A DNA stretch of 64,000 bases from assembly GCA_035606695.1 (NCBI GenBank), contig DATNEW010000031.1, forward strand, positions 124,001 to 188,000, in the 5' to 3' direction. The DNA comes from Gemmatimonadaceae bacterium (lineage in GTDB: Bacteria; Gemmatimonadota; Gemmatimonadetes; Gemmatimonadales; Gemmatimonadaceae). The notes under the pieces are model-generated. The model was not told where the DNA came from and searched no databases. It saw nothing but the letters and a program-made list of their open reading frames with translations. This document shows positions 36,638-58,784 of the stretch, in pieces (position 1 is the stretch's first letter; every line of letters starts with the position of its first letter). A program made the translations under genes and the position numbers.

Positions 36638-36656
36638 TGTCAGGGGTTTCCTGACA
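36638..36656. promoter_or_regulatory. Stress-motif site 1 (SulP/Usp)
   Basis: TGTCAGGGGTTTCCTGACA has 7-bp inverted arms, TGTCAGG/CCTGACA, and a 5-base centre. It is between divergent SulP and Usp genes, 56 bases before the Usp ATG. Another half-site, TGTCAGG, is at 36604-36610. It belongs to the six-site family described in the findings. Confidence 0.7.
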
Positions 36657-36712
36657 TTCGTCGGTTGCTCGCCCGACACCGCGCCGGCGCCCGATCGCCG
36701 AGCTTCCCTGGC

Positions 36713-37594
36713 ATGACCGCATTCGTCAACGCAGCACCACGCGTACAGTATCATGGGCTCGGCGAGGGATGGCCGCACGGCATTCTCGTCGCGAGCGACG
36801 GTCGCACGCCTGCCGACGCCGCGCTCCGCGCGGCGCGCCATCTCGCTCCGATGGGTTCGTTCGGAGTGCTCTCGGTGATTCCAAGCAACACGTCGACGAC
36901 GCCGTTCGACGCGCGCGTCGATCCCACTGATGCGGCAGAGCAGCTGGCACTGGTGAAGGCGCAGATTGAGCGCCTGTTCGGCGACTCGGTGAGCGTGCCG
37001 ATCGAGACGCGCGCCGGCTACCCACCGGCCGTCATCTCCGCGTATGCCGACACGCACGAATCGGCGCTGCTGATCGTCGGCATCGGCCGACCCCGTGTGC
37101 TCGATCGGTTGAGCGGCGACGAATCGGCGCTTCGTCTCGTGCGACTGAGTCGCACGCCGGTCCTTGTCGTCGCCGAAGGGCGCGCGACGCCGCCCCGTCG
37201 CGTCATCGTCGGCATGGACTTTACGCCGACGAGCGTGGAGGCGGCGACCCTTGCGCGCGAGCTCGCCGCGCCGGACGCCGGGATCGTGCTGGCCCACGTC
37301 GGCACGCCCGACGGACGCGCGATGCCCGAGTTGGGCATGCGGCGCATGGTGGAGACGCTGCAGACCGGATTCTGCGGTCGCATCACATCGCGGATGCTGC
37401 GCGGCGATCCGGCGACGGAGCTGCTCTCGCTCGCGAGTGAGTGGTCGGCGGACGCGCTCGCGATAGGCATGCACGGGCATGGGGCACTGGATCGCGTCGC
37501 GATCGGACCGGTGGCGATGCGCGTGGTGCGCTGCGCGAATTGTTCGGTGATCGTCACGCCGCGCGCGAGAGTCCGGGCAAATCCGGACGGCTGA
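36713..37594 (+). CDS. Tandem universal stress protein (UspA x2)
   Basis: 293 residues with two Usp domains (about 20-160 and 165-290). ATP-type signatures appear in domain 1 (LLIVGIGRPRVLDRLSGDESALRLVRLSRTPVLVVAE) and domain 2 (DALAIGMHGHGALDRVAIGPVAMRVVRCANCSVIVTP, a GxHGxG variant). It is the first gene after a stress-motif site. A second Usp gene follows 80 bases on. Probably ATP- or nucleotide-binding, acting under energy or oxygen stress. Confidence 0.9.
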   Translation: MTAFVNAAPRVQYHGLGEGWPHGILVASDGRTPADAALRAARHLAPMGSFGVLSVIPSNTSTTPFDARVDPTDAAEQLALVKAQIERLFGDSVSVPIETRAGYPPAVISAYADTHESALLIVGIGRPRVLDRLSGDESALRLVRLSRTPVLVVAEGRATPPRRVIVGMDFTPTSVEAATLARELAAPDAGIVLAHVGTPDGRAMPELGMRRMVETLQTGFCGRITSRMLRGDPATELLSLASEWSADALAIGMHGHGALDRVAIGPVAMRVVRCANCSVIVTPRARVRANPDG

Positions 37595-37674
37595 ACGCGG
37601 GACGGACATACGGCCAACGGCCGACAGACGAAACCATGCAAACGCGTGCACGATGAGATCAACGGAGGCACGTC

Positions 37675-38602
37675 ATGACCAAGACTGTTCGCGAGCGCGC
37701 GGAAACGCGTCGCTCGCGCGTCGCCGCCCCCCGCCCGATGGAAGTACGCGTGCTGTTGGCGACCGCCGGCGAGCCCGAATCACGCGGTGCGGCCACGGTG
37801 GCGGCCGCAATCGCCAAACGGTATCACGCACCTGTGCTGGCGCTGGGCGTCGTCACGCCGTTCCCGCACAACCTCTCGACGATCACGTCGATGCGGCATC
37901 CCGTCGCGCTCGACGAGACGAGCCGACTCGAGGTGCTCGAAGCCGTTCGGCAAGCGGTCCACCAGTTCTCCGCGGGTGAGTGGGAGACGCGCGCGGTCAT
38001 CGGCGATCCGGCGTCTACCATCGACGATCTCGCGCGACAGTGGGGCGCCACGCTGATTGTGACCGGACTTGGCCGCCACAAACGCGTCGATCGAATCTTC
38101 GGGAGCGAGACCGCCATTGCGGTGATGAAGCACTCGACGATTCCAGTGCTTGCCGTACCTGCGCGCATGAGCGGTCTGCCAGAGCGCGCGGTGGCGGCGA
38201 TCGACTTCACCGCGCCGAGCATGGCTGCCGCGGCGATTGGCACCGACATTCTGAGCGACGCAGGAACGCTGACCGCGGTGCACGTGTGCGGATTCGCCGG
38301 CGTCAAGGCCGAGCCGGGAGACCTGGTCGAGCTCTATCGCGCGGGTGCGAGCACCAAGCTGGAACTGGCCCTCAGCGACTTGCGCCGCCACACCAAGCGG
38401 CGTGTCGATTCAGCGATGCTCGAGGGCGAGCCCAGTCGCCCCGTCGTTGAATACGCACGACGCGAGCACTGCGAGCTCATTACGCTTGGAGGGGATGAAC
38501 GAGGGCTCCTCGACCAGCATCGTGCTGGGGAGCGTGAGAACGCGCGTCGTTCGCGATGCGCGATGCGCGGTATTGGTCGCGCCCGCGCCTGCCGCTCAGT
38601 AG
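37675..38602 (+). pseudogene. Tandem universal stress protein with a C-terminal frameshift
   Basis: A good ribosome site (CGGAGG) precedes the ATG. Two Usp domains are visible; the first is complete (LIVTGLGRHKRVDRIFGSETAIAVMKHSTIPVLAVPA). The second breaks at a GGGG run, 38491-38494. In the starting frame the protein continues as nonfamily Arg-rich sequence to 38691. One base shorter, it reads EGSSTSIVLGSVRTRVVRDARCAVLVAPAPAAQ and stops at 38602, the normal Usp ending. Either a sequencing error or a real single-base insertion. Confidence 0.75.
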
Positions 38603-38626
38603 ATGTAGACTTTCGTTCCGACGGGA

Positions 38627-38968
38627 TCACGAGCGCCCGACGCGTTTCTGCTCGACCGCGATGCGGTCATCGACTCCCGTCGACGCGATGATGTCGCCGA
38701 GAACGTCCATCGGAAGCTCGTCGAGCGATTTGAATCGCAGGCAGCTCTTGCCCATGTCCAGCTTCTTTCCTCGCGCCTTGTACGCGGCGGCGAGGCGGGC
38801 GAGCAGCGTTTTGCTGTCCGCGAGTCCCGTCATGTACAACGCGTAGTTGTTCTTCTGCGCGGCGAGCGCGAGGTACATGAGCGGCTGCTTGTTGTACGTG
38901 TCCGGAAAGCGCGACAGGGGCACTTCGTACGCGAGCGCGGCGGGCGTGAGGGCTTTGCTCGAGACCAT
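38627..38968 (-). CDS. DUF1801-family protein, shortened
   Basis: 113 residues. YEVPLSRFPDTYNKQPLMYLALAAQKNNYALYMTGL and KKLDMGKSCLRFKSLDELP are the family's core (frataxin-like fold, sometimes called iron chaperone). Normal members begin with about 35-40 more helical residues between the opening MVSSKA... and the YxVPLSR strand. Here that part is missing in frame. It may be impaired. It is convergent with the frameshifted Usp gene. Confidence 0.75.
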   Translation of the reverse strand: MVSSKALTPAALAYEVPLSRFPDTYNKQPLMYLALAAQKNNYALYMTGLADSKTLLARLAAAYKARGKKLDMGKSCLRFKSLDELPMDVLGDIIASTGVDDRIAVEQKRVGRS

Positions 38969-39044
38969 CTGCGTATTCCTCGATTGAGGGGAAGCGTCAT
39001 CATGTCACGGCCGCCGACACCGCGCAACCTTCATTCGACCGCGT

Positions 39045-39611
39045 TTATGTAGGGGCTCCGGTCGAAGAAATCCGCCCTTCGCTGTTCCGCGTGAACGACT
39101 CGCGTTGGCGAAGGACGTCCATCGCGACGGCCATCGACGTGAACAGAACCTCCACGCCGCTGAACCGCCCGGCGTACCGCGCGAGCAATCCGCCCCAGCC
39201 CATGCGGTATCCGCCGTAGGCGCCGCGGGCATGATCGCTCATCCGCTCCCAGCCCGACGACACCAACTCGACGCGTGTTCCGCGTCCCTCGGCCGTGAAC
39301 GTCACTTCGACCTGCTGCGCGTCGGCGCGCGCGAACGCCGCGTGGAAGGTGAACGCCACGCGTGCCGGAGGCTCGAGCTGCGTGACAGTGCCCCACTCGT
39401 AGCGCGTGCCGTCGTAGTGCTCCTCGTAGATGGCGCCGCCGACGCGCGCATCGAATACGACACACTTCACGCGGCGTCCGCCGATCGAGTGTCCGTAACG
39501 CGGCCACCAGCGCCCGAACTCCTCGACGAAGCGGCGGTAGGCGGCGTCGGGCGTCCACGGAACGGTTACCGATCGGCGAATCGGCGGGACATCGCGAGAT
39601 GCGTGGGTCAT
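39045..39611 (-). CDS. SRPBCC-family (AHSA1-like) protein
   Basis: 188 residues. VTVPWTPDAAYRRFVEEFGRWWPRYG, GGAIYEEHYDGTRYEWGTVTQLEPPARVAFTFHA and TRVELVSSGWERM show the START-like SRPBCC fold of the AHSA1 branch (hydrophobic ligand binding, not the true Hsp90 co-chaperone). The start overlaps the ArsR stop by 4 bases. ArsR + SRPBCC pairs are common and probably answer to a hydrophobic compound. Confidence 0.87.
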   Translation of the reverse strand: MTHASRDVPPIRRSVTVPWTPDAAYRRFVEEFGRWWPRYGHSIGGRRVKCVVFDARVGGAIYEEHYDGTRYEWGTVTQLEPPARVAFTFHAAFARADAQQVEVTFTAEGRGTRVELVSSGWERMSDHARGAYGGYRMGWGGLLARYAGRFSGVEVLFTSMAVAMDVLRQRESFTRNSEGRISSTGAPT

Positions 39612-39946
39612 GGGCGGCGTTTCCGTGAAGGGGTTGGACGCGGGCGTGCCGGTGCCTCGCCGGCGTCGGCATAGGCGCTGAGCACGTCGTCCCACATCGA
39701 CTCGAGCCAGCGGTGCAGGGCCTCGAGTCCTTCGGTGGACGCGGCGTAGTAGCGGCGCGTCCCTTCGCGGCGATCGTGCACGAGATGCGCGCGGTGCAGC
39801 ACGCGCAGGTGTTCCGACGCGCTCGGCTGGCGAATGGCGACGCGTTCGGCGAGCTCGCCCACGGTATAGGGGCGCCGGCGAAGGTGCGCGTACATCGCGC
39901 GGCGCGTGGGATCGGCGAGGGCGGTCAGCACGTATTCATAGGTCAT
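39608..39946 (-). CDS. ArsR-family transcriptional regulator
   Basis: 112 residues, winged helix: YVLTALADPTRRAMYAHLRRRPYTVGELAERVAIRQPSASEHLRVLHRAHLVHDRREGTRRYYAAS. No metal-site Cys is seen, so it belongs to the non-metal branch typically paired with SRPBCC proteins. A perfect GCCTATATAGGC palindrome lies right before the ATG and could be its operator. It overlaps the preceding CBS gene by 11 bases. Confidence 0.9.
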   Translation of the reverse strand: MTYEYVLTALADPTRRAMYAHLRRRPYTVGELAERVAIRQPSASEHLRVLHRAHLVHDRREGTRRYYAASTEGLEALHRWLESMWDDVLSAYADAGEAPARPRPTPSRKRRP

Positions 39947-40349
39947 GGCCTATATAGGCACCGACCGATGAAGCTGTCAAGCGCGCGATGTCCACCCGGC
40001 TGATCACGCCGAGGACGATCTCGTCTTCGTCGACCACGGGCAGCCGGCGCACTCGCGCGGCGTCCATCGCGGCCAGCGCCCGGTCGACGCTGTCCAGCGG
40101 TCCGATCGTCGCCACCGGCGCCGGCGTCATCACGTCGCGCACGTGATCCGCTGACGCCCGCTCCTCAGCCATCGCGCGCACCACGAGATCGCGATCGGTC
40201 ACGACGCCGAGCAACTGGCGATAGAGTTTGCTCTCGACGACCGGCAGCAGGCCCACCCCGTGCGTGCGCATCAGCCGCGCCGCCGTCGTGATCGAATCGC
40301 CCGGCACTACTTCGGCGGGGCTCCAGGTCATGGCGTCTTTCACGAGCAT
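39936..40349 (-). CDS. Two-CBS-domain protein
   Basis: 137 residues: two CBS motifs (MLVKDAMTWSPAEVVPGDSITTAARLMRTHGVGLLPVVE..LLGVVTDRDLVV and VRDVMTPAPVATIGPLDSVDRALAAMDAARVRRLPVVDEDEIVLGVISRVDI). It should bind adenine nucleotides or a related ligand. The start is the Met directly before the first CBS domain. It overlaps the upstream Usp gene and the downstream ArsR gene by about 10 bases each. Stand-alone CBS proteins beside Usp are typical of low-oxygen regulons. Confidence 0.88.
   Translation of the reverse strand: MLVKDAMTWSPAEVVPGDSITTAARLMRTHGVGLLPVVESKLYRQLLGVVTDRDLVVRAMAEERASADHVRDVMTPAPVATIGPLDSVDRALAAMDAARVRRLPVVDEDEIVLGVISRVDIARLTASSVGAYIGHDL
39948..39959. promoter_or_regulatory. 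Candidate ArsR operator
   Basis: GCCTATATAGGC is a perfect 12-bp palindrome two bases upstream of the ArsR start codon, overlapping the end of the CBS gene. Repressor binding here would block its own translation start region or promoter. Confidence 0.5.
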
Positions 40350-41191
40350 TGGATGGCCTCCGACGCGCGCTCGGTGGGGATGCCGCGGCCGCGCCACGGC
40401 GCTGACGGCGGGCGGCGGAGGAGAAGGGGCAGGCGGCTTTCGCGCTCGAGCCGGGCCGTGACGCGTCCGCGACTCTGCAACGAAGCCCCGCTGCCGTGCG
40501 TGGCCATCGCGATGGCCGAGACGTTGTAGGTCCACGCGAATTTCAGGATGGCAGCCGCGACGTCGCGTGACACGATGACGTACGAATCGACGTCGCAGTC
40601 GCTCCGAGCGGCCAGGTCGATCGCCGCGTGCGTGAGCTCCTCGTAGGCGTCGGCGACGGCCGTCTGCATCGCCTGCTCATCGCGCTCGGCCTCGTGATAG
40701 TTCGATCGAAGCAACCGCTGCAGCGATGGCGCCGGCTGCTCGATCACGCGGAGCAGGAGGATCTGCGACACGCCGTGGCGCGCGAGATTCGCGACCGGTC
40801 CAAAAATGGTGCGCGACTCCGCCGATTCATCGACTGGAACGAGGATGCGTGCGAAGTCGTTTCGTGACCGAACCACGCCGGGCCGCATTGGACGGGGATC
40901 CTCGGGCACTTCCAGCAGTGGAACGTCCGTGTGCGCGACGAGATAGTCTCCGACGCTCTCGGCGAACACGCTCGAGAGGCGTCCGATGCGCGGCGCCGCA
41001 AGCACGATCAGATCGGCGTCGAGCTCGCGAGCCTGTCGGCTCACCCACTCCGCCATCACGCAACCGACAGCGGCGCGCAGCGGAAGCGACGTCAGCGTGG
41101 CGCCGTCGCGCGCGGCGAGCCCGCCCGCGACACGCAACGCCCGGTCCGCGGCGAGGGAATCGTCGACGGGTATGAGAATGTGCTGATACAT
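40340..41191 (-). CDS. Tandem universal stress protein, first domain shortened
   Basis: 283 residues. The ATG has GAGGGGG at a good distance. Domain 1 opens HILIPVDDSLAADRALRVAGGLAARDGATLTSLPL but then jumps straight to VMAEWVSRQARELDADLIVLAAPRIGRLSSVFAESVGDYLVAHTDVPLLEVPE, about 45 residues shorter than usual. Domain 2 (ARILVPVDESAES...) is full length, with IAMATHGSGASLQSRGRVTARLERESRLPLLLRRP. It follows the small membrane gene at 41206 on the same strand. Confidence 0.87.
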   Translation of the reverse strand: MYQHILIPVDDSLAADRALRVAGGLAARDGATLTSLPLRAAVGCVMAEWVSRQARELDADLIVLAAPRIGRLSSVFAESVGDYLVAHTDVPLLEVPEDPRPMRPGVVRSRNDFARILVPVDESAESRTIFGPVANLARHGVSQILLLRVIEQPAPSLQRLLRSNYHEAERDEQAMQTAVADAYEELTHAAIDLAARSDCDVDSYVIVSRDVAAAILKFAWTYNVSAIAMATHGSGASLQSRGRVTARLERESRLPLLLRRPPSAPWRGRGIPTERASEAIQCS

Positions 41192-41205
41192 GATGTATCC
41201 CCCTC

Positions 41206-41535
41206 TCACGGTCTATTGAGTCGGATGGCATGCGCCGCGTCGAGTGCGCGCCGGCGCCCAAATGCGCGAACCACCGACGTCGCGAAACCGCCGCCCAGCA
41301 CCAGCCACGCGCCGGCGGTGAAGGTCACGACGAACACCGAATGATCGAACGTGCCCATCCACGCGATGATGAAGCCGAGGAGTGGCGGCATCACGACGGC
41401 GCCGAGCACGGCCGCGTTCAACGCGCGCTCCCACGTCCACGTCGTCGGCCTGAGCGCATTCGCCGCCCAGATGGCCGCGACGAGAACGACGCCGGTGATG
41501 CGGATGGCAATGCGAAGTCCACGATGACGCGCCAT
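41206..41535 (-). CDS. Small membrane protein, unknown function
   Basis: 109 residues with three hydrophobic segments (VVLVAAIWAANAL, NAAVLGAVVMPPLLGFIIAWMG, SVFVVTFTAGAWLVLGGGFATSVVRAF). The start is the Met before ARHRGLRIAIRI, with GGAG a few bases upstream. Divergent from mlaE, sharing the stress-motif region, and upstream of the Usp gene. No family recognised. Confidence 0.65.
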   Translation of the reverse strand: MARHRGLRIAIRITGVVLVAAIWAANALRPTTWTWERALNAAVLGAVVMPPLLGFIIAWMGTFDHSVFVVTFTAGAWLVLGGGFATSVVRAFGRRRALDAAHAIRLNRP

Positions 41536-41610
41536 GCTCGGCTCCACGTGCGATACGAACGCAAGCTGGCTCGAGGCGCGCGGCCGGGCTGTCGGGCGAA
41601 GGCCGGGCGG

Positions 41611-41630
41611 TGTCCGCCAAATCCCCGACA
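41611..41630. promoter_or_regulatory. Stress-motif site 2 (Mla/membrane protein)
   Basis: TGTCCGCCAAATCCCCGACA; read on the other strand it starts TGTCGGGGATTT and ends GGACA. An additional half-site, TGTCGGG, is at 41590-41596. Site 2 is 54 bases before the mlaE start and 75 bases before the divergent gene's start. Confidence 0.6.
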
Positions 41631-41684
41631 GTCGGCGGCGTCGCGAGATACCAACGTTCGCGCGCACCGCACACCGTCACGACG

Positions 41685-43483: not shown

Positions 43484-43504
43484 GGGGGAAGGTTTTCCCC
43501 GACG
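43481..43504. promoter_or_regulatory. Stress-motif site 3 (Usp-DUF5335)
   Basis: Core GGGGAAGGTTTTCCCC, followed by GACG; it begins in the mlaD stop codon. Spacing is a few bases longer than in the other sites. It is 98 bases before the Usp-DUF5335 start. Confidence 0.5.
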
Positions 43505-43602
43505 GCGTTTCAGCGGATCGCCGACGGACTCGCCGCCGCGTCGCGTCCATTCTTCCATCAGCGCCCGCCCACCGACCGCGGGTCCCTCTGGAGGAGGAAA
43601 CC

Positions 43603-44886
43603 ATGACCACGCTCAAGATGCCTTCGACCACGCCGGAGCTCGGCGTCCGCGCCTCGCGTGCCGCGCCCATCATCATCGCGACGGACGGCCGCGATCAGTC
43701 CGATCCCGCGCTCGTCCTGGGACGCCTGGTCGCCGGTTCTCCCGACGCGCTCCGCATCGTCACCGTTCTCAAAACGGTTCCGGTGGTGAGCCCCGACATG
43801 CAGCTCTCCGTCTCGGCCGATGTCGAGGCGGCGCGACGGGCCGAAGCGCGCCGCTCGGTGATCGATCAGATGCAGCGCTGGTGGTCGAGCGACGCGAAGG
43901 AGTCGGGTGCGGTCGAGTTGTACGACGGAGATCCCGCGACCGTCGTCACGCGCCTCGCGCACGAATCGGCGGCCACCATGATCGTTGCCGGTCTTGGGCG
44001 TCATCGGGTGATGGATCGAGTGTTCGGCGACGAGACCGCGCTGCGGCTCATTCGCCTGTCCGACGTCCCGGTGCTCGCCGTCGCCACTGGGGCGACGCAC
44101 GCGCCGCGGCGCATCGTCGTCGCGGCGGATTTCAGCGAGACCAGTCTGCGCGCGGCGCGGCTGGCGCTCGAGGTCGCGGCGCCGGAGGCGACAGTCTATC
44201 TCGCGCACGTTGCGCCTCGCGACAGCACGCTGTATGAGTGGAACGCGCCCGGCACGTCGTACCGGATGGATGCCGGCGCCGCGCTGCGGAAGACGCAGGA
44301 TCAACTGCGCGTGCCGCCCGACATGACGGTGCAGCGCGTGCTCCTGCAGGGTGATCCGGCGACCGAGTTGCTGGCGTTCGCGTCGAGCGTCAACGCGGAC
44401 CTCATTGCCACGGGAAGTCATGGGCACGGCTTCGTGGCGCGCCTGCTGATCGGCAGCGTCACGACGCGTATCGTGCGATGCGCGACGTGCAGCGTGCTGA
44501 CGGTGCCGCACGCCGCCGCGATGACACGCGTGCGAACACGGGTCGAGCCGGCGGCGGTGGTCGCGCTTCCGCGCAACGACTGGAGCACCCAGTTGGACGA
44601 CTTCACGCGCAAGAACATGGGACGAAAGTCCATCCTCGAAGTCGACGATCCGGAGATCGGCGCCCAGGCGCAACAGTTCGACTACCCGCTGCTCGGCGCC
44701 AGTTTCGACAGTCACGACCAACGGGTGGAGCTGATGTTCGGCCAGCTCGGCGATACGCGACGTCATCTTTCGCGGGGCATCGGAGGGGTAACCGGGATCG
44801 ACGTGCTGCGTGACGCCGCTGGCCGCGACGTTGCACTCCGAGTTGTACACGGTGCGGGGCAGACGTTGCTGCACTTCACCTCGTAG
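43603..44886 (+). CDS. Tandem Usp fused to a DUF5335 domain
   Basis: 427 residues with a strong ribosome site (GGAGGAGG). Two Usp domains (about 20-155 and 160-305; SVNADLIATGSHGHGFVARLLIGSVTTRIVRCATCSVLTVP) are followed by a C-terminal 100-residue domain: WSTQLDDFTRKNMGRKSILEVDDPEIGAQAQQFDYPLLGASFDSHDQRVELMFG...ITGIDVLRDAAGRDVALRV. That is DUF5335, usually a separate small protein. The fusion suggests DUF5335 works with Usp in stress sensing. Confidence 0.85.
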   Translation: MTTLKMPSTTPELGVRASRAAPIIIATDGRDQSDPALVLGRLVAGSPDALRIVTVLKTVPVVSPDMQLSVSADVEAARRAEARRSVIDQMQRWWSSDAKESGAVELYDGDPATVVTRLAHESAATMIVAGLGRHRVMDRVFGDETALRLIRLSDVPVLAVATGATHAPRRIVVAADFSETSLRAARLALEVAAPEATVYLAHVAPRDSTLYEWNAPGTSYRMDAGAALRKTQDQLRVPPDMTVQRVLLQGDPATELLAFASSVNADLIATGSHGHGFVARLLIGSVTTRIVRCATCSVLTVPHAAAMTRVRTRVEPAAVVALPRNDWSTQLDDFTRKNMGRKSILEVDDPEIGAQAQQFDYPLLGASFDSHDQRVELMFGQLGDTRRHLSRGIGGVTGIDVLRDAAGRDVALRVVHGAGQTLLHFTS

Positions 44887-44973
44887 CGGTCAACTCGGTC
44901 GAGGCGTGCGGGCGGTTCGCGACGGTCGGCGCGGCCGTTCGCATGTCCTCGAGCTCTGGAGCCATGCCCAACA

Positions 44974-46902: not shown

Positions 46903-46929
46903 CGTCGGCCAGCGCGTGCGACGCGAGGC

Positions 46930-46948
46930 TGTGGGGAATTCCCTCACA
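46930..46948. promoter_or_regulatory. Stress-motif site 4 (porin/nos)
   Basis: TGTGGGGAATTCCCTCACA, near-palindromic with TGTG/CACA ends. A weaker second site, CCCGACGGAATCCCCGGTTGG-like, lies at about 46986-47005. These are the only candidate control elements in the 192-base gap before the porin and nosZ genes. Confidence 0.7.
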
Positions 46949-47094: not shown

Positions 47095-48504
47095 ATGCTA
47101 CGCCTCAAGACTCTCAGCTTCGCAGCCGCCGCGACCCTGGTCGCCGGACTTGCGATGGCCCAGCAGCCGTCGATGAAAATCGCGAGCGCCACCGTTGCTC
47201 GCGTTGCTACGGACAGCGTCAAGCCGGACAGTGCCAAGAAGGACCCCAAGATCAATCCGCAGTCCGTGACCTTGTACCGTCCGGCGGAGATCGATCACAT
47301 CCGTCCGGCCGACATCCGCGGTCTCAACATCTTCGAGCCGCCCAAGCAGAGCACCGTGCCGTTCACGGGCTTCGCGCTGTCGCTCGGCGGTGCCTTCACG
47401 CAGGAGTTCCAGGGCCTGGACCACACGAACGCCGCGCTGTCCGCCCTCACGAACGGTGTGAATGCGAATCAACTCATCGCGATCGGTCACGGCTTCAACA
47501 ACGCGGTCGCGAACCTGAACGTGAACGCGCAGATCGCGCCGGGGATCCGCGTCGCCATGACATCGTATCTCTCCGCGCGTCATCACCAGGAGAGCTGGGT
47601 GAAGGACGGCTACTTCCTGATGGACGAGTCGCCGATTCACACCGCGCTGCTCGACGCGCTCATGAAGAACGTCACACTCAAGGTTGGTCACTTCGAGATC
47701 GACTACGGTGACGATCATGCGCGCCGCTCGGACAACGGCAATTCGATGTACAACCCGTTCATCGGCAACTCGATCCTCGAGGCGTTCACGACCGAGATCG
47801 GCGGCGAAGTGTTCTACCGTCCTGGCGATCTCATCGCGATGTTCGGCGTGACCGGCGGCGAAGTGCATGGCCAAGTCACCGCTCCGGGTGCGCGCAGTGC
47901 CTCGGTGCTCGGCAAGCTCGGATTCGACACCAAACTCGACGAAGGCGTCCGCGTCCGCCTGACCGGCAGCTTCTACTCGAACAACAAGTCGGCGAGCAAC
48001 ACGCTGTTCACCGGCGATCGCGGCGGCTCGCCCTTCTATGATGTGCTCGAGAACACCGCGTCGACCGAAACCACCAACGCGTGGTCGGGTGAGATCCGCC
48101 CCGGGTTCTCGAACAAGGTCAATGCGGAAATTCTGAATCCCTTCGTCAAGATCGGCGGACTGGAATACTTCGGCAGCTATGAAACCGCCCGTGGCGGAGC
48201 ATTCACCGAACCGAAGCTGCGCAACCTGCGTCAGTTCTCGAGCGACCTGCTGTATCGCTTCGGCGGCGGCGAGCGGTTCTACGGCGGCGCGCGGTATCTC
48301 ACGCTCAACGGGCAGATGCTGCCAAGGGTCTACACGGATCAGAACGTGAACCGTTGGGAGCTCGGCGGCGGTTGGTTCGTGACACCGAACGTGCTCGCCA
48401 AGGCCGAATGGGTGACGCAGGAGTACAACAACTTCCCATCGAACAACATCTACAACGGCGGCAAGTTCAACGGTTTCATGATCGCGGGCGCCGTGGGCTT
48501 CTGA
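47095..48504 (+). CDS. Outer-membrane porin-like beta-barrel protein
   Basis: 469 residues with a signal peptide (LKTLSFAAAATLVAGLAMAQ) and CCGGAGGAACT upstream. The mature protein has the alternating, aromatic-rich beta-strands of a porin and ends in Phe (FMIAGAVGF), as outer-membrane barrels do. No known porin family is obvious. It is immediately upstream of the nos genes and follows a stress-motif site. It may let nitrate, nitrite or copper pass. Confidence 0.75.
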   Translation: MLRLKTLSFAAAATLVAGLAMAQQPSMKIASATVARVATDSVKPDSAKKDPKINPQSVTLYRPAEIDHIRPADIRGLNIFEPPKQSTVPFTGFALSLGGAFTQEFQGLDHTNAALSALTNGVNANQLIAIGHGFNNAVANLNVNAQIAPGIRVAMTSYLSARHHQESWVKDGYFLMDESPIHTALLDALMKNVTLKVGHFEIDYGDDHARRSDNGNSMYNPFIGNSILEAFTTEIGGEVFYRPGDLIAMFGVTGGEVHGQVTAPGARSASVLGKLGFDTKLDEGVRVRLTGSFYSNNKSASNTLFTGDRGGSPFYDVLENTASTETTNAWSGEIRPGFSNKVNAEILNPFVKIGGLEYFGSYETARGGAFTEPKLRNLRQFSSDLLYRFGGGERFYGGARYLTLNGQMLPRVYTDQNVNRWELGGGWFVTPNVLAKAEWVTQEYNNFPSNNIYNGGKFNGFMIAGAVGF

Positions 48505-48524
48505 TCGACAACTCACCTCTGCGG

Positions 48525-48555
48525 AATCCCTGCCGGGCGGTGTCCGGCAGGGATT
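48525..48555. terminator. Hairpin downstream of the porin gene
   Basis: AATCCCTGCCGG (48525-48536) and CCGGCAGGGATT (48544-48555) are perfect 12-bp arms around a 7-base loop. No U-run follows, so it may be a processing site or attenuator that lowers read-through into nosZ rather than a full terminator. Confidence 0.65.
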
Positions 48556-48575
48556 CGACTATCCGGGAGCGGAAC

Positions 48576-49088
48576 ATGTTCGGACGAGTCATGATCGTGC
48601 TCGCGTGCGCGGCCGGCGTCTGCGCCGGACGGAGCGTACACGCGCCGTCGGCTTTGACGTCTCGGTGCACGTACGACGCATGCGCGCTCAACATCGTTCC
48701 GAGGCTACGCGGACTCGACGTGGTGCGCGGCGATGCCGAAGAGCGAGTCGCGACGCTCGACTTTCTCTGGCCGCGCTCCGTGAATGCGGCGTTCGGGGGC
48801 AGTGCGCAGGCCGAGCACCACGCATCGCGCGCGTTGTCGATCCGGCGAATTGCGTCGGTGATGACGGATGTCGGCGGCTTGGTTGCGGCGGCGGCCGCGA
48901 TTCGCGCGGCGGAAACTCCGCAACATCGCCGCGTTTCGGTGGGAATTTCGCTCGGCGGCATCGCGCTGCTCGGCGCGTCGGTCCTGCCGCAATTCGCGGC
49001 GGACACCGAGCTCAGTCGCGCGGTGCGCGACTACAACAGGCAGTTCGTCAGCAAATCACCTACAACACTTCCCGACATCGCCCGATAG
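48576..49088 (+). CDS. Exported protein of unknown function before nosZ
   Basis: 170 residues with a signal peptide (MFGRVMIVLACAAGVCAGRSVHA). A Cys pair follows (SRCTYDACALNIVPRL). Two hydrophobic stretches at the C-terminal half (IASVMTDVGGLVAAAAAIRAA, RVSVGISLGGIALLGASVLPQ) could be membrane segments. GGGAGCGG lies upstream. I recognise no family. Its place between porin and nosZ suggests a helper role in N2O respiration or a copper-related function. Confidence 0.6.
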   Translation: MFGRVMIVLACAAGVCAGRSVHAPSALTSRCTYDACALNIVPRLRGLDVVRGDAEERVATLDFLWPRSVNAAFGGSAQAEHHASRALSIRRIASVMTDVGGLVAAAAAIRAAETPQHRRVSVGISLGGIALLGASVLPQFAADTELSRAVRDYNRQFVSKSPTTLPDIAR

Positions 49089-49161
49089 AGCGGGATCGTC
49101 GCTCGACGAACCTTATCAGCACGGCTTTGTCCGCATTTCTCACACTCGGGTGCGCAATCCC

Positions 49162-51153
49162 ATGAGACTCTCTACTCAACGCTCGTTGTTGCTGGCCGCG
49201 GTTGCGGTCGCCGGCGTGATCTACGCGTGTACGCCGCGCGCGAAAACCGCCAGCCTCGCGGCGTCGGACGCCGCGTCAAAGGTCTACGTGCCGCCGGGCA
49301 GCTACGACGAATTCTACGCGTTTCTGTCCGGTGGATACAGCGGCCAGGTGTCCGTGTACGGCCTGCCGTCCGGCCGGCTGCTCAAGCTCATTCCAGTTTT
49401 CTCACAATTTCCCGAAGACGGCTACGGCTACAACGAAGAGACCAAGCCGCTGCTTCAGACGACGTACGGCTTCGTGCCGTGGGACGATTCGCATCATCCG
49501 GAACTGTCGCAGACGAACGGCGTGCCGGACGGCCGCTGGCTCTTCATCAACGCGAACAACACGCCGCGCGTCGCGCGTATCGACCTGACGCGCTTCGAGA
49601 CCGACGAGATCCTCCAGATCCCCAACTCGGCCGGCGGCCACGCGTCCCCGTTCACGACGCCGAACTCCAAGTACGTCGTGTCGGCGACGCGGTTCAGCGT
49701 GCCGATCCCGAACACCGACGTCGCGATCGATACGTACAAGCAAAACTTCAAGGGCACGATCACCTTCATGACGGCCGATCAGCCGGGGAAGATGGACATC
49801 GCGTTCCAGATCCTGATGCCCGGCTACAACTACGATCTCGGCCACGCCGGCAAGGGCCCGTCCGATGGGTGGTTCTTCTTCACCTCGTACAACACGGAGC
49901 AGGCGAGCACCAAGCTCGAGGAAAACGCGTCCCAGAACGACAAGGACTACGTCGCGGCGATCAACTACAAGCGCGCCGAGGAATGCGTGGCGCAAAACAA
50001 GTTCACGACGCAAACCACCGAGTATGTCCACAACTGGGTGGACCAGGCGTCGCGGGCAGCCAAGTCGGAAAAGAAGACGAGCGTCAAGCTCATCAATCCG
50101 TCGCAATGCCCGGGCATCGCGTACTACCTGCCGACGCCCAAGTCGCCGCACGGCGTGGACATCGACCCCACCGGCGAATACATCGTGGCCGGCGGCAAGC
50201 TCGCCACGGTCATTCCAGTCCACTCATTCACGAAGCTGCAGAAGGCGATCGCCGACAAGGCGTTCGACAAGGAAGTGGACGGCATTCCGGTGCTGAAGTA
50301 CGACGCGGTCATCGCCGGCGAAGTGCAGAAGCCGGGGCTAGGCCCCCTGCATACCGAGTTCGACGGGAAGGGCTACGCGTACACGTCGATGTTCATCTCG
50401 TCTGAAGTCGTGAAGTGGAAGCTCGGCACGTGGGAAGTCGTCGATCGCATTCCGACCTATTACTCGATCGGCCACCTGTCGATTCCGGGAGGCGACTCGA
50501 AGCAGCCGTGGGGCAAGTACGTCCTGGCGCTGAACAAGATCACGAAGGACCGCTATCTCCCGACCGGCCCCGAGATGGCGCAGTCGGCTCAGCTGATCGA
50601 CATCAGCGGCGACAAGATGAAGCTGCTGCTCGATTTCCCGACGATCGGCGAACCGCACTACGCGCAAGCGCTGCCCGCAAGTCTGATCAAGGACAAGCAG
50701 ATCAAGTTCTTCAAGCTCGCCGAGAACGCCCACCCATTCGCGACGAAGGCCGAGTCCGAGGGCGGCATCACGCGGACGGGCAAGCGCGTGGACGTCAAGA
50801 TGATCGCCATCCGCAGCCACTTCGCGCCGGACAATCTCGAAGGCGTGCAGGTGGGCGATACGGTCTACTTCCACGTCACCAACATTGAACAGGACTGGGA
50901 CATCGAGCACGGATTCGCGGTGCTCGGGCAAAACAACTCCGAGCTGATTCTCAATCCTGGTGAGACGCGCACGCTGCAGTGGATTCCCAAGACACCGGGC
51001 GTCTACCCGTTCTACTGCACCGACTTCTGCTCGGCGCTGCATCAGGAGATGCAGGGCTACGTCCGCGTGTCGCCCGCCGGTTCGCCGGTGAAGCTCATGG
51101 CGAACGTCAGCAAGAAGACGCAGGCGCAGCTCGTCGAAGCCCAAAAGCATTAA
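49162..51153 (+). CDS. nosZ: Nitrous-oxide reductase, clade II (lipoprotein type)
   Basis: 663 residues. The leader ends in VIYAC, a lipobox rather than the twin-arginine signal of clade I enzymes. The seven-bladed propeller with the CuZ His ligands includes DDSHHPELSQTNG, NSAGGHASPF, SPHGVDIDPTGEY and GPLHTEFDGKGY. The C-terminal cupredoxin CuA site is complete: C619-TDF-C623-SAL-H627-QE-M630. The enzyme reduces N2O to N2 in the periplasm. It heads the NosL/D/F/Y genes. No strong ribosome site is seen before the chosen ATG. Confidence 0.95.
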   Translation: MRLSTQRSLLLAAVAVAGVIYACTPRAKTASLAASDAASKVYVPPGSYDEFYAFLSGGYSGQVSVYGLPSGRLLKLIPVFSQFPEDGYGYNEETKPLLQTTYGFVPWDDSHHPELSQTNGVPDGRWLFINANNTPRVARIDLTRFETDEILQIPNSAGGHASPFTTPNSKYVVSATRFSVPIPNTDVAIDTYKQNFKGTITFMTADQPGKMDIAFQILMPGYNYDLGHAGKGPSDGWFFFTSYNTEQASTKLEENASQNDKDYVAAINYKRAEECVAQNKFTTQTTEYVHNWVDQASRAAKSEKKTSVKLINPSQCPGIAYYLPTPKSPHGVDIDPTGEYIVAGGKLATVIPVHSFTKLQKAIADKAFDKEVDGIPVLKYDAVIAGEVQKPGLGPLHTEFDGKGYAYTSMFISSEVVKWKLGTWEVVDRIPTYYSIGHLSIPGGDSKQPWGKYVLALNKITKDRYLPTGPEMAQSAQLIDISGDKMKLLLDFPTIGEPHYAQALPASLIKDKQIKFFKLAENAHPFATKAESEGGITRTGKRVDVKMIAIRSHFAPDNLEGVQVGDTVYFHVTNIEQDWDIEHGFAVLGQNNSELILNPGETRTLQWIPKTPGVYPFYCTDFCSALHQEMQGYVRVSPAGSPVKLMANVSKKTQAQLVEAQKH

Positions 51154-51215
51154 ATGCGGAATTCCGAGCGGAGGCGCGAAGCGCCGAAGCGAGGAACAAT
51201 CACAGGGATTTGAAG

Positions 51216-51842: not shown

Positions 51843-52273
51843 AGCGCGCGACGCGAAGCCGTCTCGCGCGCGCGGCCGTGCTGGTGCTCGTCGCGGCCTG
51901 CGCGGCCGGCGGGCCCGACGCCATCCTCTACGGCGTCGACGCGTGCGCGTTCTGCAAGATGCAGATCGCCGAGCAGCGGTTTGCGGCGGAAGTCGTGACC
52001 AAGCATGGCAAAGCGGTCAAGTTCGATTCGATCGAATGCCTGCTCGCCTATCTGCACGCCGCAAAGGCGAACGAGCAACCGGAGTCAGTGTGGGTTTCAG
52101 ATTTTCGTAATCCGGGCCGCCTGCTCGACGCGTCACAGGCGCGCTTCATCGATCTCGGACCGCAGCGCGCGCCGATGGGTCGCGGGTGGGCGGCGGTCGC
52201 GACGGCGCGCGACGCGGCCGCCGTCGGTGTGATCGACGCCGGCGCCATCAAACGCTGGGCGGAGCTGCTCTGA
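51839..52273 (+). CDS. nosL: NosL copper chaperone lipoprotein
   Basis: 144 residues from a GTG start overlapping the upstream stop. Lipobox VLVAAC (Cys21). The copper(I) site motif is DACAFCKMQI, with KFDSIECLLAYLH further on, as in the NosL family, which feeds copper to the CuZ centre of NosZ. It ends overlapping the nosD ATG (TGATG). Confidence 0.92.
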   Translation: MKRATRSRLARAAVLVLVAACAAGGPDAILYGVDACAFCKMQIAEQRFAAEVVTKHGKAVKFDSIECLLAYLHAAKANEQPESVWVSDFRNPGRLLDASQARFIDLGPQRAPMGRGWAAVATARDAAAVGVIDAGAIKRWAELL

Positions 52274-53505
52274 TGCTTCGCCGCGCACTGGTGCTCAGCT
52301 TCGTCGCGATGGGGCCCGCCGAAGCGCAGCGGACCGTTGACGTCGGCGCGACGTACGCGCATCGCACCATCGCGAGCGCGATCGCCGCGGCCCACGACGG
52401 CGATACCGTCCTCGTGCACGCCGGACTCTATCGCGAGCCGCTCGTCGTCATCGACAAGCCCATCGCACTCGTCGGCGACGGTTGGCCGGTGCTCGACGGG
52501 GAAGGGAAACACGGCCTGGTGCTCGTCACCGGCCCCGCCGTCACCGTGCGCGGGCTCGTGCTGCGCAACGTCGGCACGAGCTTCGTCGAGGATCGCGCGG
52601 CGCTGCGAGTGAGCGAGACGCACGGGTGCGTCATCGAACACAATCGCCTCGAGAACGCATTCTTTGGGATCTATCTCGCCAACACGACCGACTGCCGCGT
52701 CGCCGACAACGTCATTCACGCGAACGGCACGCGGGAAACGGAGTCGGGAAACGGTATTCACCTCTGGACGTCGCGCCGCATCACGATCGAGCGCAACGAG
52801 ATCTCGGGCCAGCGCGACGGGATCTACTTCGAGTTCGTGCACGACAGCGACATCCGCGGCAACCTCAGCGAACGCAATCTGCGGTACGGCCTGCATTTCA
52901 TGTATTCCGACGACTGCCGCTACGTGGACAACACGTTTCGGCACAACGGCTCGGGCGTCGCCGTGATGTACACGAAGCGCGTGCGCATGACCGGCAACCG
53001 GTTCGAGGACAACTGGGGCGCCGCCGCGTACGGACTCCTCCTCAAGGAGATCAGCGACGCGACGCTCGAGCGAAACGTCTTCGCGCACAACACGGTTGGC
53101 CTGTTCGCCGACGGCGCCAATCGCCTTCAGGCGATCCACAACGACTTTCGCCGCAACGGCTGGGCGGTGCGCCTCGACGCCAGCACGCTCGACGGCCGCT
53201 TCCGCAGCAACAATTTCATCGGCAACAGCTTCGACGTCTCCACGAACAGCCGCGAGCCGTCGACGACCTTCACCGGCAACTACTGGGACGGCTACCGCGG
53301 CTACGATCTCGATCGCAATGGCGTCGGCGACGTTCCGCATCGCCCCGTTCGGCTGTTCTCGGTGATCGTCGAGCATCAGTCGCCCGCGCTCATCCTCATG
53401 CGTTCGGCGTTCGTCGAGCTGCTCGAGAACGCCGAGCGTGCACTTCCCTCACTCACGCCGAACGCACTGGTCGACTCCACTCCCGCCATGAGGCCCATTC
53501 CGTGA
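52273..53505 (+). CDS. nosD: NosD periplasmic beta-helix protein
   Basis: 410 residues with a signal peptide. Parallel beta-helix repeats (VRGLVLRNV, CVIEHNRLENAFFGIYLANTTDCRVADNVI, ITIERNEISGQRDGIYF, YGLHFMYSDDCRYVDNTF) are typical of NosD/CASH proteins. NosD with the NosFY transporter matures the CuZ centre, probably in sulfur or copper delivery. Overlaps nosF by GTGA. The last 30 residues are poorly conserved. Confidence 0.92.
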   Translation: MLRRALVLSFVAMGPAEAQRTVDVGATYAHRTIASAIAAAHDGDTVLVHAGLYREPLVVIDKPIALVGDGWPVLDGEGKHGLVLVTGPAVTVRGLVLRNVGTSFVEDRAALRVSETHGCVIEHNRLENAFFGIYLANTTDCRVADNVIHANGTRETESGNGIHLWTSRRITIERNEISGQRDGIYFEFVHDSDIRGNLSERNLRYGLHFMYSDDCRYVDNTFRHNGSGVAVMYTKRVRMTGNRFEDNWGAAAYGLLLKEISDATLERNVFAHNTVGLFADGANRLQAIHNDFRRNGWAVRLDASTLDGRFRSNNFIGNSFDVSTNSREPSTTFTGNYWDGYRGYDLDRNGVGDVPHRPVRLFSVIVEHQSPALILMRSAFVELLENAERALPSLTPNALVDSTPAMRPIP

Positions 53506-54212
53506 TCGAGTTCTCCGGCATCACCAAACGCTTTGGGCGGCTCGACGTGCTGCGCGGAGTGAACCTGCGCGTCACACGCGGCCGTGTGTTGGGTATCGTC
53601 GGTCCGAACGGCTCTGGTAAGACAACGCTCATCAAACTTTTGTTGGGACTCGCGCACCCAACGTCGGGCGACATCCAGATGAACGGCGTATCGATCGTCG
53701 CGGGCGAATCATACCGCGCGGCCATCGGCTACATGCCGCAGATCGCGCGTTTCCCGGAGAATCTGAGTGCCCGCGAAGTGCTGGCGCTCATCCGCGACCT
53801 TCGGCGCACCGCGCCGGCCATCGACGAGGAGCTTCTTTCGAGCTTCAATCTCGCCGAGCAGCTCGACAAGCCGTTGCGTACGCTCTCGGGCGGCACACGG
53901 CAGAAAGTGAACGCGTGCCTCGCGCTGTTGTTTCGCCCGTCGCTGCTCGTCCTCGACGAGCCGACCGCCGGTCTCGATCCGCTCTCGAGCGCGTTACTCA
54001 AGGACAAGCTCCTTGCGCGCCGCGCCGAGGGGGCGACGGTGATCGTGACGTCGCACATCATGAGCGAGCTCGAGGAGCTGTGCGACGACGTCGCGTTTCT
54101 GCTCGACGGCGTGGTGCGGTACGTCGGCCCTGTCGCCGACCTCACGGCGCTCACGCGCCAGGCAACGCTCGAGCGGGCGATTGCCGCGCTCATGATCCGG
54201 GAGGTCGCATGA
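53502..54212 (+). CDS. nosF: NosF ABC transporter ATPase
   Basis: 236 residues from a GTG start. Walker A GPNGSGKTTL, Q loop GYMPQ, signature LSGGTRQKVN, Walker B LLVLDEPTAGLD and switch His (TSHIMSELEELCDDV) are all intact. It drives the NosY permease for CuZ assembly. It overlaps nosD upstream and nosY downstream by 4 bases each. Confidence 0.94.
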   Translation: MIEFSGITKRFGRLDVLRGVNLRVTRGRVLGIVGPNGSGKTTLIKLLLGLAHPTSGDIQMNGVSIVAGESYRAAIGYMPQIARFPENLSAREVLALIRDLRRTAPAIDEELLSSFNLAEQLDKPLRTLSGGTRQKVNACLALLFRPSLLVLDEPTAGLDPLSSALLKDKLLARRAEGATVIVTSHIMSELEELCDDVAFLLDGVVRYVGPVADLTALTRQATLERAIAALMIREVA

Positions 54213-55003
54213 CCGCGACCGTCGCCAAGTTGATCCGCATTCAGACGGCGGACGTGCTGCGCAGCCGATGGATCGCTCTCTACGCCGCGTTCTTCCTCTG
54301 TCTGACCGAAGGCTTGCTGCGATTCTCCGGCGGCGACGCGCGCGCGGTGCTCAGTCTGGGAACCGCGGTGCTCATGGTCATTCCGCTCGCGTCGCTCGTG
54401 CTGGCGACCATCTATGTCTACAACGCGCGCGAGTTCACCGAGCTGCTGCTCGCGCAGCCGATCCACCGTTCGTCGCTGTTCACCGGCTTGTATCTCGGCC
54501 TGTCGCTGCCGATGGCCGTGGCCTTTCTCGCCGGCGTCGGCGTGCCGTTCCTGACGCGCGGCGGCGCCGAGCCGGACGTGCGCGGTGCCCTCGCCATGCT
54601 GCTGGTCGTGGGTGCATTGCTCACGTTCGTGTTCACCGCGGTCGCGTTCTGGATCGCCCTCCGCACCGAGGATCGATTGCGCGGCGTCGGCATCGCGCTC
54701 GGCGTGTGGCTGCTCGTCGGCGTGCTGTACGACGGGATGGTGCTGCTGGGCGTCGCGCTCTTCTCGGACTATCCGGTGGAGCGAGCGCTGCTCGCGCTCA
54801 CGCTCGCGAATCCCATCGATCTTGGGCGCGTGCTGCTTCTTCTCACACTCGACGTCGCGGCGCTCATGGGATACACGGGCGCCGTGTTCGAGCGGTTCTT
54901 CGGCGGCACCGGCGGCGCATTGCTCGCGCTCACGATGCTGCTCGTCTGGACCGCGGTTCCCATCGCGGCCGGCGCACGACGCTTCCGCCGCCGCGACTTC
55001 TGA
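54209..55003 (+). CDS. nosY: NosY ABC transporter permease
   Basis: 264 residues with six membrane helices of the ABC-2/NosY type. YVYNAREFTELLLAQPIHRSSLFTGLYLGL is the conserved coupling region. It pairs with NosF and NosD in maturation of N2O reductase. The cupredoxin gene begins 35 bases later. Confidence 0.92.
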   Translation: MTATVAKLIRIQTADVLRSRWIALYAAFFLCLTEGLLRFSGGDARAVLSLGTAVLMVIPLASLVLATIYVYNAREFTELLLAQPIHRSSLFTGLYLGLSLPMAVAFLAGVGVPFLTRGGAEPDVRGALAMLLVVGALLTFVFTAVAFWIALRTEDRLRGVGIALGVWLLVGVLYDGMVLLGVALFSDYPVERALLALTLANPIDLGRVLLLLTLDVAALMGYTGAVFERFFGGTGGALLALTMLLVWTAVPIAAGARRFRRRDF

Positions 55004-55038
55004 ACATTCTAACACTCCAATTCACAGGACATCCGACC

Positions 55039-55494
55039 ATGTCTGCCTCTCGTTCCCCGTTCATCATCCTGTCGGCGGCTACGCTCGCCGTGCTTGCCGC
55101 CTGCGGCGGCGAATCGAAGCCCACCGCGGCGTCATCGAGCGCCCCGCCCGCGGCGGCCGCGGCGCCCAGCGGTCCGCAAACGCCCGATCCCGGCGGCAAG
55201 GTGGTCGTCGTCGAGCTCTCGAGCGACGCCAACGGCAATTACTTCAAGCCGGCCGAAGTTCATGTCAAGCGCGGCGACGTCGTTCGCTACACGCTCAAGG
55301 TTGGCGTGCACAACGTGCACTTCCTGGCCGACTCGAACGCGGGAAAGTCGGGCTTCCCGGCGTCGCCCAGTGATTTCCTGCAGCTCCCGGGGCAGACGTA
55401 TGACGTGCTCGTGCACCTCGACAAGGGGTCGTACTACTTCCAGTGCGATCCACACGCCGCGCTTGGCATGAAGGGGCATCTCATCGTCGAGTAG
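55039..55494 (+). CDS. Lipoprotein cupredoxin (plastocyanin/azurin-like)
   Basis: 151 residues. Lipobox LAAC, then an Ala/Pro-rich tether. The copper site has VHNVHF (His) and YYFQCDPHAALGMKG (Cys, His, Met), a complete type 1 set. It is last in the nos operon and is a likely electron donor to NosZ or NirK. Confidence 0.88.
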   Translation: MSASRSPFIILSAATLAVLAACGGESKPTAASSSAPPAAAAAPSGPQTPDPGGKVVVVELSSDANGNYFKPAEVHVKRGDVVRYTLKVGVHNVHFLADSNAGKSGFPASPSDFLQLPGQTYDVLVHLDKGSYYFQCDPHAALGMKGHLIVE

Positions 55495-55510
55495 CGCGCG
55501 CGAAGGAGCG

Positions 55511-55529
55511 CGTCGGGGATTCCCCGGCG
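55511..55529. promoter_or_regulatory. Stress-motif site 5 (YceI)
   Basis: CGTCGGGGATTCCCCGGCG, with a strong GGGGATTCCCC core. It is 140 bases before the YceI start, in a 175-base gap. Confidence 0.65.
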
Positions 55530-55669
55530 GTAGAGGCGGCGAAGGCGGACACAGAATCAGCGCATCACCGACATATCCGCCACGATCGAAATCCGATCTT
55601 CAATGCAGTTCGATGACGCAGCGTGACCGACCGGCGCGACCGCGGCATCGAGAGATCGAGGGAGATCGT

Positions 55670-56311
55670 ATGAGGACCGCCATTCGTTTCGCCGCCGTCA
55701 CTGCCTCTACCGCCGCGCTCCTGCTCGTTGCCGCAGCCGCCGGCGCTCAAAATACCGCTCGCGTGAACGTGTCCGCCGACAGCAAGCTGTGGATCGACGG
55801 CACGTCGAACTTGCACGACTGGAGCTGCAAAGCCGACAAGATCGACGCGGCGATCGACATGGACGTCGCGGCGGCCGCCTCGATGACCGTCACCGCGCCA
55901 AAGGCGGTGAAGAAGGTGGAAGTCAGGATTCCCGTGAAGGCGCTCCACTGCAATCACGGCGGCATGGACGGCAATGTTTATAAAGCGCTCAAGGCCGACC
56001 AGGCGCCGGACATCAGCTACATCCTGGCGACGCTCGAGGCGGTGCCGGGCGACAAGGACGAGATCACCCTCAAGACCGAAGGCACGCTGACGATCGCGGG
56101 GAAGGAGAACAAGATCTCGATGACCATCGAGGCGGTGCGGCTCGCGGACGGCACGCTCAAGGCGAAGGGTGTGGTGCCGATCAAGATGACGGACTACGGC
56201 ATTCAGCCGCCGACGGCGATCTTCGGGCGGCTCAAGACGGGGGATGAGGTGAAGGTGAACTTCGAGCTGAACGTGGGGGCAAAAGCGATCGCCGCGCTGA
56301 ACGAGCGGTAA
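55670..56311 (+). CDS. YceI-family periplasmic protein
   Basis: 213 residues with a signal peptide (FAAVTASTAALLLVAAAAGAQ) and GGAG upstream. YceI lipocalin markers: KLWIDGTSNLHDWSCKADKIDAAIDMDV, VEVRIPVKALHCNHGGMDGNVYKALKA and ITLKTEGTLTIAGKENKISMTIEA. YceI proteins bind polyisoprenoid lipids (quinones or carotenoid precursors) in the periplasm and are often induced by stress. Two Cys are present. Confidence 0.88.
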   Translation: MRTAIRFAAVTASTAALLLVAAAAGAQNTARVNVSADSKLWIDGTSNLHDWSCKADKIDAAIDMDVAAAASMTVTAPKAVKKVEVRIPVKALHCNHGGMDGNVYKALKADQAPDISYILATLEAVPGDKDEITLKTEGTLTIAGKENKISMTIEAVRLADGTLKAKGVVPIKMTDYGIQPPTAIFGRLKTGDEVKVNFELNVGAKAIAALNER

Positions 56312-56327
56312 GCGGTCGCACACCGTT

Positions 56328-56402
56328 GTCATCCTGAGCGAAGCGAAGGACCTCTCTCCTCGGTGGAAAGGGGTCCTTCGTCGCTTCGCTCCTCAGGATG
56401 AC
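56328..56402. repeat. GTCATCCTGAGCGAAGCGAA interspersed repeat, paired arms
   Basis: Left arm 56328-56359 and right arm 56372-56402 pair well and flank a short loop (CGGTGGAAAG region). A further half copy lies at 56411-56427. It is directly downstream of the YceI gene and could terminate its transcript. Confidence 0.82.
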
Positions 56403-56431
56403 AACTCACGCTGCGCTCCTCAGGACGACGA

Positions 56432-56450
56432 TGTGAGGGATTCCCCGACC
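56432..56450. promoter_or_regulatory. Stress-motif site 6 (multicopper oxidase)
   Basis: TGTGAGGGATTCCCCGACC, closest in form to sites 4 and 5. It lies 84 bases before the multicopper oxidase start and upstream of the sensor/regulator genes that follow it. Confidence 0.7.
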
Positions 56451-58776: not shown

Positions 58777-58784
58777 GAGGACGT

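Follow-up and report, generated by a model that had tools for sequence, protein, structure and literature searches.

The stretch of DNA considered here, referred to as the window, covers 64,000 nucleotides of a Gemmatimonadaceae bacterium (assembly GCA_035606695.1, contig DATNEW010000031.1, positions 124,001 to 188,000) and carries 19-bp palindromes in front of genes for denitrification enzymes, Usp proteins and a two-component system, their proposed regulator. The two-component system consists of a histidine kinase (57628-58776, HisKA_3 and HATPase) and a NarL-family response regulator (RR; 58785-59447, Pfam Response_reg and GerE), the proposed operator-binding protein; both are on the forward strand, behind a two-domain multicopper oxidase (56535-57608, forward) that is the first gene of their operon. 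The receiver and GerE (LuxR) domains of the RR, together with its HisKA_3 kinase partner, place it in the NarL/FixJ superfamily. The other putative targets in the window are an Rrf2-family regulator (34155-34562, reverse strand, start inferred) with the copper nitrite reductase NirK behind it (33013-34125, reverse; TIGR02376 360.1 bits, cut-off 296.3), a Usp protein (36713-37594, forward, start inferred), a tandem Usp-DUF5335 protein (43603-44886, forward), a protein labelled a porin in an earlier note on this DNA that has no Pfam or NCBIfam match (47095-48504, forward), the Sec-type (clade II) nitrous-oxide reductase NosZ with downstream nos genes (48868-51153, forward; TIGR04246 930.6 bits), and a YceI-like protein (55613-56311, forward).

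The earlier note, which was made from the letters of the sequence, proposed six palindromic operators, and the strings that it quoted were all found in place. Its consensus, TGTCGGGGATTCCCCGACA, is matched at 15-16 of 19 positions by sites 1, 4, 5 and 6, while 20 first-order Markov sequences had on average 0.15 places per window at 15/19 and none at 16/19. Across the 5.9-Mb genome of the same bacterium only sites 5 and 6 lie within 3 mismatches of this consensus (control 0), and a degenerate form of it has 46 strand-wise matches compared with 8 for the reversed pattern. Because a consensus derived from the sites themselves proves little, the sites were retested with a matrix trained on relatives only. 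De novo palindromic expectation-maximisation was run on stretches of 410 bp that span the RR operon start in 20 relatives, with the window left out. At width 19 it yielded TGTCGGGGAATCCCCGACA, with a log-likelihood ratio of 152 compared with 33-38 in three shuffles; widths 18 and 20 gave ratios of 53 and 63 and other motifs. Nineteen of the 20 training loci have a site of at least 15 bits in the stretch used, G025 reaching only 5.1, and five of nine held-out RR loci have one of at least 14 bits upstream (G018 had no locus for this test). The 20 loci (375 kb) contain 62 places of at least 10 bits, of which 39 fall beyond the training stretches; the reversed matrix has none. Promoters are favoured over coding DNA: only one of the 42 places of at least 14 bits in these loci was flagged as deep inside an open reading frame (ORF), and among 128 deep-coding 700-bp windows 2.3% reach 10 bits, a threshold picked after the window ranking was known, and none reaches 14.

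Scored with this matrix, four of the six sites and one that the earlier note had missed stand apart in the window; the best place outside these five (11.1 bits, at 49046) lies inside nosZ. Site 1 (36638-36656, 23.5 bits) is located between a divergent SulP gene (inferred start at about 36589) and the Usp gene, 56 bp from the inferred ATG of the latter at 36713. Site 4 (46930-46948, 20.2 bits) lies 146 bp upstream of the gene for the putative porin, ahead of nosZ, site 5 (55511-55529, 16.7 bits) lies 83 bp before YceI, and site 6 (56432-56450, 21.5 bits) lies 84 bp before the operon of multicopper oxidase, kinase and RR. The missed site (34677-34695, 21.2 bits) precedes the Rrf2-nirK pair, with about 115 bp between it and the inferred start of Rrf2 (34562). 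Sites 1 and 34677 fall within longer mechanical ORFs and are intergenic only under the inferred starts; all five top sites are intergenic if the Rrf2, SulP and Usp starts are right. Site 3, re-framed to 43486-43504, is weak (9.96 bits, rank 7 in the window) and lies 98 bp before the Usp-DUF5335 gene, in keeping, as are sites 4, 5 and 6, with the spacing first proposed (83-146 bp for these four). Stronger sites are present at about equal distance in several orthologous Usp-DUF5335 promoters, and site 3 is probably a real, weak operator. Site 2 (41611-41630), which had been assigned to the Mla genes, is a half-site only (-0.5 bits) and is ruled out as an operator; no site of at least 9 bits precedes MlaE in G005, the sole same-genus relative in which MlaE was found. 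In three of 20 relatives (L090, L091, L093) MlaE and MlaD directly follow the RR gene, an arrangement that may place the Mla genes and the regulator on one transcript.

Recurrence of the motif before orthologous genes, which the earlier note had offered as a check, was found in the main. At promoters of same-genus relatives outside the training stretches, sites are present in the SulP gap (24.9 bits, G005), before the porin homolog (22.6 bits, G004) and at Rrf2-nosZ (15.7 bits, G005), and four of five YceI promoters carry a site of 10.7-16.5 bits; the five same-genus RR operons in that comparison are training loci. The independent matrix, the promoter bias and the recurrence at orthologous genes strongly support a shared operator and a common regulon. 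That the sites are merely chance GC-rich palindromes, as might be suspected in a window of 66% GC where two of six quoted sites proved weak or wrong, is virtually inconceivable, and for the strong sites the independent matrix, the reversed-matrix control and the conservation exclude it.

Many of the strong sites are accompanied by a second, weaker one. Among 85 distinct strong sites, 27, or about a third, are paired with another match 22 or 44 bp away. The commonest offset is 22 bp (18 of 170 flank positions, two pairs being counted from both ends), followed by 44 bp (10), with 0-6 for each of the other offsets from 20 to 79; counting the stronger neighbour only (82 sites), there are 16 at 22 bp and 10 at 44 bp. 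For sites with a single assignable gene direction, the partner at 22 or 44 bp (within 1 bp) is on the gene side in 21 cases and away from the gene in 5; at exactly 22 or 44 bp the numbers are 11 and 3, compared with 13 and 10 at other offsets. Since the genomes are related, these counts are not all independent. Within the window, and with scores floored at -2 per position (floored bits), site 6 has a partner exactly 22 bp downstream (56454-56472, 10.0 floored bits), site 5 has one 44 bp downstream (55555-55573, 11.2 floored bits), and site 3 is one of two weak sites, the second lying exactly 22 bp downstream of 43486 (43508-43526, 12.3 floored bits). Sites 1, 4 and 34677 have no partner above 1 bit. 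The weaker partners suggest cooperative dimers, and the spacing of 22 or 44 bp is what two RR dimers on one face of the DNA would need.

Elsewhere in the genome of the window, a 16.0-bit site lies about 112 bp before coxB, and a 14.3-bit site, overlapping the end of a Usp gene, lies 71 bp before a NirK-like oxidase gene (169 bits, cut-off 296). An 18.4-bit site is found inside the ORF of a BTAD-type regulator (L005:1501-1519, C1:96777), 288 bp before a glycosyltransferase gene. In six relatives, where 20 stretches were hand-picked as high scorers among the matches listed, the motif was found at a fused CcoNO cbb3 oxidase (two genomes), hemN (436 bits, cut-off 325), FeoB, a heme-type radical SAM protein, cytochrome b/ferredoxin, Usp-DUF5335, Rrf2, an RR paralog, DoxX and others; the hemN, FeoB, heme-type radical SAM and Rrf2 targets come from one relative each, and 3 of the 21 sites in these hand-picked places are deep inside an ORF. 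The cbb3 oxidase gene adjoins the RR gene in G008 (L054/L304) and G029 (L049/L308). In G026 a 481-amino acid protein without Pfam or NCBIfam match is encoded beside nosZ (L273:1049-2494), with a 23.8-bit operator at its start; this gene between motif and nosZ was expected to correspond to the porin gene of the window, which is not the case.

The distribution of the motif follows that of the RR at several promoters. With an RR ortholog defined by a cut of at least 63% identity set in this analysis, 35 genomes were sampled from the family and 30 of them, that of the window included, have one, as does 1 of 24 genomes of two sister families; the closest named relatives of the RR, at 63-91% identity, come from 5 loci in Gemmatimonadaceae or Gemmatimonadetes assemblies. 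A site of at least 10 bits precedes nosZ in 13 of 18 RR-positive genomes but in none of 10 RR-negative ones (Fisher 0.00025), based on 28 of 31 rows after omission of two fragments and of the genome of the window, whose site precedes the porin gene and so lies outside the 1.5 kb scanned. Restriction to nosZ of at least 65% identity gives 12/17 and 0/5; among RR-negative nosZ genes four are distant (45-47%) and one is partial. NirK and NirK-like genes together have the motif in 10/17 RR-positive and 0/9 RR-negative cases (Fisher 0.0028, computed as 10/16), and NirK-like genes alone in 8/10 and 0/7. In this sample 25 of 26 rows were scanned and then the last RR-positive row, and the 10 matches include a training site (G034) and one shared with nosZ (G025). 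The corresponding counts for CcoNO are 12 of 16 RR-positive loci and 0 of 3 RR-negative ones (Fisher 0.036; 19 of 20 rows scanned, the G022 fragment being omitted), or 10/14 without G032 and G028, whose matches had prompted the test. Genome-wide motif density, at 1.03 hits per Mb (control 0.05) in 31 RR-positive genomes and 0.62 (control 0.18) in 28 RR-negative ones, gives the link weak support.

The palindromes are probably the operators of a single autoregulated low-oxygen regulon run by the two-component system at 57628-59447. Its membrane histidine kinase would phosphorylate the RR when respiratory oxygen is short; RR dimers would then bind the 19-bp palindrome TGTCRGGRAWTYCCYGACA, and in about a third of cases a second dimer would occupy a weaker site towards the gene, at a distance of 22 or 44 bp. 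The predicted outcome is activation of nitrous-oxide and nitrite respiration, of cbb3 oxidase (in relatives), of stress proteins and of the regulator's own operon. The motif with its conservation, promoter placement and spacing, the targets and the association with the RR are seen in the sequence; binding by the RR, activation and a low-oxygen signal are inferred. The earlier note had named the regulator at 58785 as the obvious candidate, and it remains the best one: the motif is present at its operon in 19 of the 20 relatives used for training and in 5 of the 9 held out.

Several observations weigh against this assignment. Four of the nine held-out RR operons (G014, G039, G026 and G028) are without a strong site, and G039, an RR-positive genome from another family, is without the motif at its nosZ, NirK-like and RR genes. 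True NirK genes (at least 58% identity) carry the motif in only 2 of 7 RR-positive genomes (0/2 RR-negative), and Usp or Usp-DUF5335 relatives in 10 of 22 loci (0/1 RR-negative). The presence of the RR largely tracks taxonomic family, so the association of motif and RR is confounded. In addition, 16 RR-negative genomes of a sister family are still enriched in the motif (42 hits, 10 in the control), with some sites above 20 bits, and it may therefore be shared with another regulator. The kinase showed no known oxygen-binding domain, and a PAS/GAF kinase adjoining at 59705-61162 could be a further sensor.

The sister-family enrichment is also an argument for binding of the motif by a different regulator, for instance a paralogous NarL-family RR, with the kinase-RR operon as one target only. 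Genomes contain several related RRs, and in G032 one such paralog (57%) is preceded by a 23.2-bit site. This explanation is nevertheless unlikely, because none of the nosZ, NirK-like and CcoNO promoters tested in RR-negative genomes reaches 10 bits (0/10, 0/9 and 0/3) and the motif is most regular at the RR operon itself. Rrf2 was also considered as the binder, but the data contradict this: a search at 1e-10 gave no Rrf2 match in 8 of the 20 training relatives, 7 of which carry the motif at the RR operon, and G053, G054 and G055, which lack an RR ortholog, have Rrf2 and nosZ but not the motif before nosZ. The Rrf2 protein of the window (34155-34562), adjoining nirK, has three clustered cysteines and may add iron-sulphur or nitric oxide control to nirK. 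In the sequence search the nosZ homologs of G055 (L062) and G054 (L076) each showed one in-frame TGA.

The proposal of low oxygen as the signal follows from the target set, which includes cbb3 oxidase, anaerobic respiration of nitrous oxide and nitrite, and Usp proteins, together with oxygen-independent heme synthesis and ferrous iron uptake in single genomes, functions of a low-oxygen class. Several targets in the window, NirK, NosZ and the multicopper oxidase, have to do with copper or denitrification, and a response to nitric oxide, nitrite or copper in place of low oxygen could account for these, but it is rather unlikely in view of the motif at 12 of 16 cbb3 loci, at Usp proteins and, in one genome each, at oxygen-independent coproporphyrinogen oxidase and FeoB.

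The N-terminal part of the window kinase has no Pfam match; judged by eye, it and the N-termini of 19 aligned relatives have two hydrophobic stretches, a short loop and a HAMP-like segment. Pfam HAMP scored above its cut-off in one of seven kinases scanned and weakly in two more. GAF is absent at E up to 1 from the window kinase and the kinases of six relatives. Downstream of the RR, 59705-62933 encodes the PAS/GAF histidine kinase and an acetate kinase; the former has GAF and HisKA, not HisKA_3, domains. At least 10 of 20 relatives have a GAF-kinase match close to the RR, and such a kinase may be a second sensor of the system. More tentatively, the whole could be a family-wide Gemmatimonadaceae low-oxygen regulon in the role of FNR, in which a kinase without a recognised oxygen-binding domain and with almost no loop between its membrane segments would read the respiratory or quinone state inside the membrane, acting through paired operators two helical turns apart; this extended version is possible, if still doubtful. 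FNR is likely absent from the genome of the window, where five of nine HTH_Crp_2 matches were read and had no FNR-like N-terminal cysteine cluster (starts judged by eye). Searches of a collection of openly licensed papers showed none on the motif or on regulation in Gemmatimonadota, nor, among the titles listed, any on a nosZ regulator in the phylum. Gemmatimonadota are common soil bacteria, and their clade II nitrous-oxide reductase is a greenhouse-gas sink. The operator matrix, the list of targets and the candidate regulator make the switching-on of nitrous oxide reduction directly testable.

Comparable regulation has been described in other bacteria. In FNR-type control of nos genes, according to PMC10100939, Crp-fold regulators act on nosZ in response to oxygen; the target and the oxygen response resemble those proposed here, but the regulator fold does not. 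The NmpRSTU oxygen regulon of Myxococcus xanthus, as presented in PMC11841059, places Usp, P-type ATPase and high-affinity oxidase genes under two-component control, with features unlike those here: an NtrC-type regulator, sigma-54 promoters and the box GCGCA-N5-TGCGC. GacA-type regulators are described as activators of CsrA-binding small RNAs, and the GacA box is the 18-bp TGTAAGN6CTTACA (PMC8523701). Among NCBIfam models UvrY/SirA/GacA fits the RR best (163.5 bits, short of its cut-off of 280; MctR 158.7, MadR and NarL about 149), and the half-site TGTMRG includes TGTAAG; some of the sites have such halves, with TGTAAGGCAATCGCTTACA in one relative. However, the present motif emerges at width 19 rather than 18, with one extra base between the halves, and has a G/C-rich core and protein-coding respiratory targets.

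The DosR/DevR regulon has a GAF-domain sensor kinase, DosS and DosT being GAF/heme sensors, and the DosR operator resembles TTSGGGACTWWAGTCCCSAA. The earlier note called the present system DosR-like, which holds for gene content, regulatory logic and the tandem arrangement of strong and weak sites; kinship is another matter. If this were a genuine DosR/OsdR dormancy regulon, the first in its phylum, it would have a Usp-rich target set, a GGG..CCC palindrome, a NarL-family RR and strong plus weak tandem sites, all of which are found here, yet this reading is highly improbable, since the operator, the recognition helix and the partner kinase differ. Under the matrix the DosR box TTSGGGACTWWAGTCCCSAA and the OsdR box AGGGCCGATCGGCCCT (the latter from PMC5069765) score at best -18.9 and -17.7 bits. 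The helix PKTVDTYKQRI, largely invariant across 29 aligned proteins, compares with EKTVKNYVSRL in DevR, and among solved structures DevR (107.0 bits) ranks below VraR (144.7) and NarL (123.8); the partner kinases of the window and six relatives are without GAF. As described in PMC5069765 and PMC3029386, DosR/DevR and OsdR have in common with the regulon proposed here a NarL-family two-component regulator, Usp- and respiration-linked targets, autoregulation, a GGG..CCC palindrome and a cooperative strong site with an adjacent weak one. DevR binds such an adjacent weak site cooperatively (PMC3029386), and it is this arrangement that the tandem spacing here parallels.

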